Part shown: positions 49,778-51,553 of the stretch, piece after piece
Numbering within the stretch: the first letter of the stretch is position 1
How the letters are laid out: every line of letters begins with the position of its first letter
NCBI RefSeq assembly: GCF_900104695.1
Contig: NZ_FNSW01000001.1
Span: forward strand, 4,694,501-4,758,500
Direction: 5' to 3'
DNA: 64,000 bases
DNA from: Paenibacillus sp. GP183
Lineage (GTDB): Bacteria; Bacillota; Bacilli; Paenibacillales; NBRC-103111
Program-made: the position numbers and the translations under genes
The notes under the pieces: generated by a model
What the model was told of the DNA's origin: nothing
The model's input: only the letters and a program-made list of their open reading frames with translations
The model's database searches: none

Positions 49778-49829
49778 TTGTGCACCTCTTTGGGAACTTT
49801 TAGCCTGCACAGCTAGTTTCCCTTAAAGG

Positions 49830-49991
49830 TTAATAAATCATGCGGCCGTTAATTTTTACATTCTCGCCATACTTGGCTTTCATTAATTTGCTCTGTTCAA
49901 GCATGAAAGCATAGATTTCTTTTAATGATTTCTTGCGCGGCTGAATGGTTTCCTTGATTACACCATTGAGTACAATATCGTATACGATCAT
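49830..49991 (-). CDS. Small hypothetical protein
   Basis: 53 residues: MIVYDIVLNGVIKETIQPRK ... YGENVKINGRMIY. GGGTGAT precedes the ATG. Compact alpha/beta character; no family recognised. Confidence 0.55.
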   Translation of the reverse strand: MIVYDIVLNGVIKETIQPRKKSLKEIYAFMLEQSKLMKAKYGENVKINGRMIY

Positions 49992-50114
49992 ATCTATCAC
50001 CCTCACATTTGTTTTTACTTTTTCAGTGTAAGGGGGTTATGTTAAAGCAGGATTAATATTCCGTAGCGATTTTGTGAACTTCATGTGTTTCTACTGTAAA
50101 TGTAAAAATTGAAA

Positions 50115-50213
50115 TGTGCATAACTTTATCCACAAATCCACACTACAGGTTTGTGAATTATTAGTCCTTATTCACTTAATACTCACAGCTTATGCACAAA
50201 TTAATGTGGATAA
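50115..50213. promoter_or_regulatory. DnaA-box cluster
   Basis: Four perfect TTATNCACA boxes: TGTGCATAA (50115-50123, minus), TTATCCACA (50126-50134, plus), TTATGCACA (50190-50198, plus) and TGTGGATAA (50205-50213, minus). Two one-mismatch boxes lie between (50152-50160 minus, 50168-50176 plus). The arrangement is two inverted pairs. No dnaA/dnaN genes are near, so this is an off-origin DnaA-binding site downstream of yumC. Confidence 0.8.
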
Positions 50214-50265
50214 GCATACAAAAGGTACATCCCGTAATGTTAATAAGAGGAGATGTACCCAAATT

Positions 50266-51267
50266 TTAAAACTTCATATTGCTGCTATGTCCAGGGGACA
50301 ATTTGGCAGATGGATCAATATATACCTTCGCATTGTTAATGGCAGTAGGCGCTTCTCCAAATCCTACAGCAATCAGCTTAAGCTTGCCCGGATAAGTGGT
50401 GATGTCACCAGCCGCAAAAATGCCGGGAATGCTCGTCTCCATGCGGGAATCTACCACAATGGACCCGCTATCAATCTCAAGTCCCCATTCAGCGATAGGA
50501 CCGAGCGCGGAAACGAAGCCGAAATTGATGATGCAAGCATCTACTTCATGGAGAGTTTCCATGCCGGATTTAATGTCCTTCAAAGTGATTTGTTCAATGA
50601 GATCCGCACCGTGAAGCTTGGTGATTTCTGTGGGTGTGATGATTTCAACCTTGGAGCTCATCAATTTTTCCACACTGTGTTCATGGGCGCGGAATTTATC
50701 TCTTCGATGAATCAACTTAACATTAGCTGCGATCGGTTCAAGCATTAATGCCCAGTCCACGGCCGAGTCGCCGCCGCCGCTGATCAAAACATTTTTACCG
50801 GTAAATGCATTCAAATCATTGACAAAATAATGCAAGTTTTTCTTCTCATACTGTGCGGCTTCCGGAAGCTCCAATTTTCGCGGTTCAAAGGCGCCTACGC
50901 CTCCGGAAATGATGACAGCACGACTGAGATGGCTCATTTTGTCCGTCACAATTTCAAATAAACGTTCTTCCTTCTTGATCACTTGGAGCACTTTCTCTTC
51001 CAAACGAACATCTATCGGGAAATGCTTCATTTGCTCCAGTAAATTATTAACCAGCTGTTGAGCCGTTACTTTTGGAAATCCGGCTACATCGTTTATGTCC
51101 TTTTCCGGATATAAAGCGGCCAGCTGCCCCCCGAGCTGAGGCATACTCTCGATAATTTTGGCTGATGCCTGGCGCATTCCCGCATAGAAGGCGGCGAACA
51201 TCCCGGCAGGGCCTCCTCCGATCACTGTAATATCGAGAATTTCTTGGTCTAAAACACGTTCGTTCAA
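50266..51267 (-). CDS. yumC: Ferredoxin/flavodoxin-NADP+ reductase (thioredoxin reductase-like)
   Basis: 333 residues from TTG 51267 with GAGGAGAG six bases upstream; the frame extends to 51369. FAD motif [24 protein letters not shown] motif [18 protein letters not shown], then [33 protein letters not shown] and [17 protein letters not shown] are the YumC signature. No CxxC redox pair, which separates it from thioredoxin reductase. It shuttles electrons between NADPH and ferredoxin/flavodoxin. Essential in B. subtilis. Confidence 0.95.
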
Positions 51268-51535
51268 CTCGATCTCTCCTCTGTGTATTTTCCTCTTCAG
51301 ATCTTCTTTAATCATTATTCCATTATAAACGCACGTATTGGCGAAAGAAACAGAAAAATATGATTTCAACAGGGAATCAGCTTTTTAGTTGGCAAATTAG
51401 CACTTGAAATTTGTTTTTGTACATTATATGATGGTTGAAGGATTGATTTTTTTCTGCGGCTAATTCCATTTTCTGTCCTCATACTAAGTTGTAGTTTCGA
51501 GCAAACTATGAACTGCATTCATTTTTCGAGGCAGA

Positions 51536-51553
51536 TTGTGTAATTTTTCACAA
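51536..51553. promoter_or_regulatory. Rex-type redox operator upstream of ndh
   Basis: TTGTGTAATTTTTCACAA matches the Rex operator TTGTGAA-N4-TTCACAA at 13 of 14 defined positions. It lies 46 bases before the ndh ATG. In B. subtilis Rex senses NADH/NAD and represses ndh, so the site and gene agree. Confidence 0.72.

Follow-up and report, generated by a model that had tools for sequence, protein, structure and literature searches.

The cluster of DnaA boxes downstream of yumC in Paenibacillus sp. GP183 is very probably the DnaA-binding control array of sda, orphaned from its gene. The array has been kept in this genome while sda, the LexA-type site and the promoter that lie beside it in relatives are absent, and it is this combination that argues for an orphaned sda control array. 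Since sda is absent from the locus, the descent of the array is deduced from synteny and layout.

The DnaA boxes downstream of yumC in GP183

A scan of the window, by which we mean the whole stretch of 64,000 nucleotides that was analysed, located the exact DnaA box TTATNCACA four times within 99 bp, at 50115-50123 (-), 50126-50134 (+), 50190-50198 (+) and 50205-50213 (-). The initial annotation had described these four boxes downstream of yumC as two inverted pairs with two one-mismatch boxes between them. The pairing holds for these four, although the conserved array itself has six positions, and exactly two one-mismatch sites were found within 50115-50213, of which only the one at 50168-50176 is a conserved position; the other, at 50152-50160, lies outside the conserved array positions. 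The window contains 7 exact boxes against 2.3 expected, a number reached in 2 of 100 shuffles, and the whole genome contains 249, where the reversed control pattern gives 137. On contig C1, which carries 237 of the sites, 50115-50213 is the sole place with four exact boxes in 99 bp, and this was the outcome of the genome-wide ranking that the annotation had proposed; among the sites listed on contig C2 (12 exact boxes) there was no cluster. The oriC of GP183 has five exact boxes in 283 bp, and two further places have three in 300 bp. No case of four boxes in 99 bp arose in 20,000 random placements of the 237 sites, which rules out chance clustering, as had been supposed, and dnaA is 1.18 Mb from the cluster, in keeping with the statement that no origin gene is near. 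An exact-box density far above chance outside oriC, the mark of an extra-oriC cluster, was thus found at 50115-50213. Phage origin was also rejected, positions 49800-50300 having no match in the phage collection.

Other groups of boxes were noted on contig C1. The second-densest cluster (L238, G000:C1:3684338-3684402) has three exact boxes in 65 bp, 116 kb from dnaA. A gene for a ribosome hibernation factor (TIGR00741) lies some 530 bp downstream of it and is followed by what looks to us like secA. Another (L237, G000:C1:3064168-3064286), again with three exact boxes, spans 119 bp and is flanked by the 3' ends of two genes, one for an ABC-F-like ATPase and one that by eye is leuA-like. We take ydiF to be an ABC-F gene, which makes L237 a possible counterpart of the B. 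subtilis gcp/ydiF DnaA region. That region lies downstream of gcp and ydiF in the part of the source available (PMC4447404).

The array in GP183 consists of six positions at offsets 0, 11, 53, 64, 75 and 90, with orientations < > > > > <, all of which are present at the exact offsets; four are perfect, one has one mismatch and one has two. Box 1 (TTATCCACA, 50205-50213, minus strand, offset 90) is the box nearest sda in relatives and is exact, as is box 2 (TTATGCACA, 50190-50198, plus strand, offset 75). Box 3 (ATACTCACA, 50179-50187, plus strand, offset 64) is conserved in relatives and degraded here, with two mismatches, and box 4 (TTATTCACT, 50168-50176, plus strand, offset 53) has one mismatch. 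A central spacer of 33 bp (50135-50167), variable in sequence and within 1 bp of this length in the aligned relatives, separates these boxes from two more exact ones, box 5 (TTATCCACA, 50126-50134, plus strand, offset 11) and box 6 (TTATGCACA, 50115-50123, minus strand, offset 0). Beyond box 6 lies a gene for 53 amino acids with no assigned function (49830-49991, minus strand), and on the near side lies the syntenic neighbour that the initial annotation named yumC (50266-51315, minus strand).

Between box 1 and yumC is a junction of 52 bp (50214-50265). In relatives this interval holds the LexA-type site, the sda promoter and sda; in GP183 it holds a hairpin (-14.4 kcal/mol, z -3.6) that is a candidate yumC terminator. 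No Sda match was found at the array locus, no LexA-like site within one mismatch was found in the junction, and the exact GAACN4GTTC next to box 1 is absent. The best promoter hexamer pair after box 1 scored 8.2, below the shuffled mean of 8.9. On the other side of yumC, the sequence TTGTGTAATTTTTCACAA at 51536-51553 of the window, upstream of an ndh-like gene, resembles a Rex site, as had been noted at first.

The array and sda in relatives and in other Bacilli

Public genomes were scanned with YumC, giving 80 named loci, mostly from Paenibacillus and Cohnella, which together with GP183 and the same-genus relative G001 made a set of 82 yumC loci. In many of these, exact boxes recur after yumC at matching relative positions, against a background of 0.034 boxes per kb outside the 700 bp that follow the gene. 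With a threshold of at least 27/32 on the outer four boxes and a slack of 2 bp, 63 arrays were scored; the 25 of 88 array matches that fell below the threshold were left out, among them L052 and L064, which have the look of half-arrays. The distance from array to yumC ranged from 55 bp in GP183 to 1324 bp. In all 63 arrays boxes 1 and 2 are 15 bp apart and boxes 1 and 5 are 78-80 bp apart, and alignment of the arrays added two box positions, bringing the number to six. A sequence model (R1) was built from the 63 arrays, which had been chosen downstream of YumC matches, the presence of Sda not being a criterion. Among the matches listed, this model found one strong copy per genome (55-84 bits) in 97 of 104 family genomes and, beyond these, nothing above 31.4 bits. 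The comparison across relatives that the initial annotation had called for thus showed the boxes to be conserved. Two loci (L031 and L041) each have two extra exact boxes between yumC and sda, within 160 bp of yumC.

The array tracks sda, not yumC. In relatives a small ORF lies between array and yumC, reading away from the array, and in two examples it was identified as Sda by PF08970 matches of 55 and 53 bits. Array and sda occurred together at 62 of the 82 yumC loci and neither occurred at 16, while three had sda without a scored array and a single locus, that of GP183, had an array without sda. Put differently, 16 of the 17 yumC loci lacking sda also lack the array and the 17th is GP183; in six of the 16 the yumC copy is not in its usual neighbourhood. 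Of the 97 strong family arrays, 92 lie beside a listed Sda match, all of them divergent in the yumC orientation, with a spacing of 55-78 bp in 90 cases and of 167 and 196 bp in the other two. Four more were confirmed locally, so that 96 of the 97 arrays are directly upstream of sda and read towards it, the sole exception being GP183 (G000). Among the matches listed, four of the seven family genomes without a strong array have no Sda match either (G004 and G019, 99% complete; G006 and G008, 68-70% complete), and three of the 104 family genomes have Sda and no strong array (G014, G015 and G021).

The sequence that follows the array in relatives is also shared. An exact GAACN4GTTC, which we take to be a LexA (DinR) site, immediately follows box 1, read in the sda orientation, in 44 of the 63 family arrays and in 23 of 27 arrays from the wider class, against 7 of 3150 random 40-mers. 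As read from the scan, the site in many loci overlaps a -35-like TTGTTC with a -10-like element after it. The promoter hexamer scan gave a slight excess over shuffled sequence (mean 9.8 versus 8.9), and in 44 of 62 loci the top-scoring pair begins 9-12 nt beyond box 1. A Spo0A box in the central spacer was set aside as a candidate element: GTCGAA, presumably the Spo0A-box word, is found in some of the array sequences only and is absent from GP183. This arrangement may be set beside what the available parts of the literature on B. subtilis report, namely that LexA represses sda and DnaA activates it (PMC11925247), and that Sda, the product of this DnaA-activated gene, inhibits KinA and KinB (PMC12112137). 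In the accessible portion of PMC4447404, the sda upstream region, with 8 sites, belongs to the ten regions that DnaA bound most strongly in vitro, with a Kd of 0.15 µM with ATP and 0.51 µM with ADP, and about 50-fold more of its DNA was recovered with ATP-DnaA than with ADP-DnaA at 55 nM.

The same layout was found in other Bacilli. Thirty loci outside the family were chosen by Sda score only, with about 1.5 kb on each side, and 27 of them carry the six-box layout upstream of sda at a score of at least 40/48 with a slack of 1 bp; one of the 27 (L191) scored only 3/8 at the first box. The mean layout score over the 30 loci was 42.3, compared with 26.4 (maximum 29) for a downstream control and 34.3 for the best of ten permuted layouts scored on the same upstream stretch. 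Neither yumC nor any other window neighbour tested was found within the roughly 1.5 kb on each side of any of the 30. A joint model (R2) was then built from 27 of the 30 class arrays and 28 of the 63 family arrays, GP183 included, which makes its recovery of those same arrays circular. In 299 class genomes it gave 93 matches of at least 40 bits, and among the matches listed 90 are followed by Sda on their own strand. The other three are the array of GP183, the sequence upstream of dnaA in G333 and a partial array in G185. Sda was listed in 127 class genomes, 38 of which lack an array match of at least 40 bits, 16 of the 38 having a weaker match beside Sda; the layout is thus common and not universal.

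The partial match in G185 (L231, G185:C53:5644-5764; 44 bits) has no Sda or LexA-like site and is possibly a second orphaned array. Matches in G019, G333 and G306, for which no Sda match was listed, had also been considered as orphans, but they sit upstream of dnaA and so belong to oriC. With the sda-array model the dnaA-upstream regions of G333 (C2:10335-10433) and G306 (C1:49-145), both of family f17, score 32-40 bits, hinting that the sda array may share its layout with part of oriC. The offset steps of 11, 11, 11 and 42 bp each come close to an integral number of helical turns and may reflect phasing of the boxes. A fixed chromosomal address was set aside as a conserved property. Measured from dnaA, the array is found at 0.10-0.26 of the chromosome in 17 family genomes (0.217 in GP183), but sda at 0.16-0.38 in eight other Bacilli, most genome sizes having been rounded; synteny thus explains the position of the array better.

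These results bear on the interpretation first given to the cluster, according to which it might link replication to the NADPH or NADH state by way of yumC or ndh. What stood of that interpretation is a real extra-oriC cluster that is conserved in relatives; the redox link was not supported, since in relatives the array belongs to sda. In favour of such a link, the array is 52 bp downstream of yumC, and yumC and ndh keep their synteny in relatives. In addition, yutJ, which we take to be an NADH-dehydrogenase-like gene of the yumC/yut neighbourhood, contains a weak DnaA region in B. subtilis. This region (number 16, with 5 sites) has a Kd of 2.5 µM, much weaker than that of sda, and the comparison with the B. 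subtilis regions that had been suggested places sda in the top ten, with no mention of yumC in the part of the source available (PMC4447404). Against the redox link, the array sits downstream of yumC and follows sda rather than yumC across the 82 loci, and at Bacilli loci with neither yumC nor ndh, sda is preceded by an array of the same layout. Regulation of the redox genes was rejected on these grounds, and we regard it as most improbable.

Fate of the array in GP183

The orphaned-array reading suggests the following course of events. The ancestral locus would have had the six-position array upstream of sda, a small checkpoint gene that delays sporulation during ongoing replication; in B. 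subtilis, according to published work, DnaA activates and LexA represses it, and its product inhibits kinases at the start of sporulation. The gene, its promoter and the LexA-type site would then have been lost from the interval between box 1 and yumC, a deletion being the simplest route, leaving the six-position array in place. Such an array could still bind DnaA cooperatively, would have no transcriptional output towards sda, and would act at most as a DnaA sink. Among the matches listed, the only PF08970 match in GP183 is at C1:5056545, 312 kb from the array, and no DnaA box or LexA-like site within one mismatch was found in the 400 bp upstream of this paralogue, so the checkpoint may be uncoupled from both regulators. 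Spo0A is present in GP183, indicating that at this step the pathway to sporulation has been retained. The same-genus relative G001 has kept sda, with an array that scores 40/48 and a half-lost LexA-type site, which suggests that change in the module had already begun in this genus.

One could envisage that the array has been taken over by the 53-amino-acid gene, whose start is 123 bp beyond box 6. Related ORFs are present on the same side in 17 of the 63 array loci, but other ORF families occupy that side elsewhere, one of them in 31 loci, with the array unchanged; no promoter was established for the gene, and its product had no Pfam or NCBIfam match. We consider this control improbable.

Two other outcomes are sub-cases of the orphaned array, and the state of the boxes bears on both. 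The six-box score of GP183, 45/48, is joint third among the 63 arrays, with two higher, and all four outer boxes are perfect in only two of the 63, GP183 included. Relative to the consensus of 12 clade members, three of the 48 core positions have moved towards the DnaA-box consensus and two away from it, while 30 of the 45 spacer positions have changed; the identity of the GP183 spacer to that of single relatives is 0.29-0.40. The four-fold sites of yumC are near saturation in the comparison with G001 (JC 1.65). For a neutral branch of 0.5 with the loss of sda at a random time, a rough estimate of the probability that the 32 outer core sites remained intact is 0.062.

That the array is a relic, in which sda was lost recently and the boxes are decaying without function, has in our view about an even chance of being correct. 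It is consistent with the orphaned state having been found in one of 97 arrays only and with the mismatches in boxes 3 (two) and 4 (one); the perfection of the four outer boxes, and the departure of box 2 from the clade state towards the consensus, argue against it. The other outcome, selection having kept the array as a sink that titrates DnaA and delays initiation, is possible, though we lean against it. The high score, the core changes that improve the boxes amid a largely altered spacer, and the low chance of neutral retention beside near-saturated yumC sites point in this direction, as do the B. subtilis extra-oriC clusters reported to delay initiation in the available parts of PMC5295017 and PMC13220808. 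Against it, a very recent loss of sda fits the same data, box 3 is degraded, and the array of G001 is poorer in spite of the retained sda. Moreover, the 16 other yumC loci without sda (the six non-syntenic copies among them) are also without the array, and neither G004 nor G019, nearly complete genomes with no Sda match listed, has a strong array.

A broader proposal, which we put forward tentatively and think rather unlikely, is that the array is a self-standing DnaA-assembly scaffold with a fixed architecture, which serves to drive sda across Bacilli, and that the GP183 lineage has detached it from the checkpoint and kept and partly improved it as a dedicated sink. If true, DnaA titration and the control of sporulation would here have been separated by nature. 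More generally, the comparisons define at the level of single bases the DnaA array coupling replication with sporulation that is common to distant Bacilli, with six positions, fixed distances and an abutting LexA-type site. The orphaned copy is a natural setting in which to ask whether arrays of this kind have a role independent of the gene under their control. A literature search, partial in its reach and with Burkholder 2001, Veening 2009 and Okumura 2012 outside it, found no description of the fixed six-box layout or of an orphaned array.

Comparison with known DnaA-box systems

Like datA and DARS of E. coli, the array is a non-coding DnaA-box element; datA and DARS are described, in the sources as far as available, as acting on DnaA, and the activity that marks them is the promotion of DnaA-ATP hydrolysis or nucleotide exchange. 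It also resembles the extra-oriC DnaA-box clusters of B. subtilis in having dense exact boxes outside oriC and in being a candidate DnaA sink. Deletion of six such clusters led to early initiation in B. subtilis (Okumura et al. 2012, as cited in the available parts of PMC5295017 and PMC13220808). It has no B. subtilis counterpart at yumC among the DnaA regions given in the part of PMC4447404 available. The closest likeness is to the yqeG-sda region of B. subtilis, in its published description as far as available a multi-box DnaA array upstream of sda. The GP183 array differs from that region in having no sda, promoter or LexA-type site and in having yumC as its neighbour; the comparison is made by way of the 27 of 30 Bacilli loci outside the family that share the same six positions, usually together with a LexA-type site.
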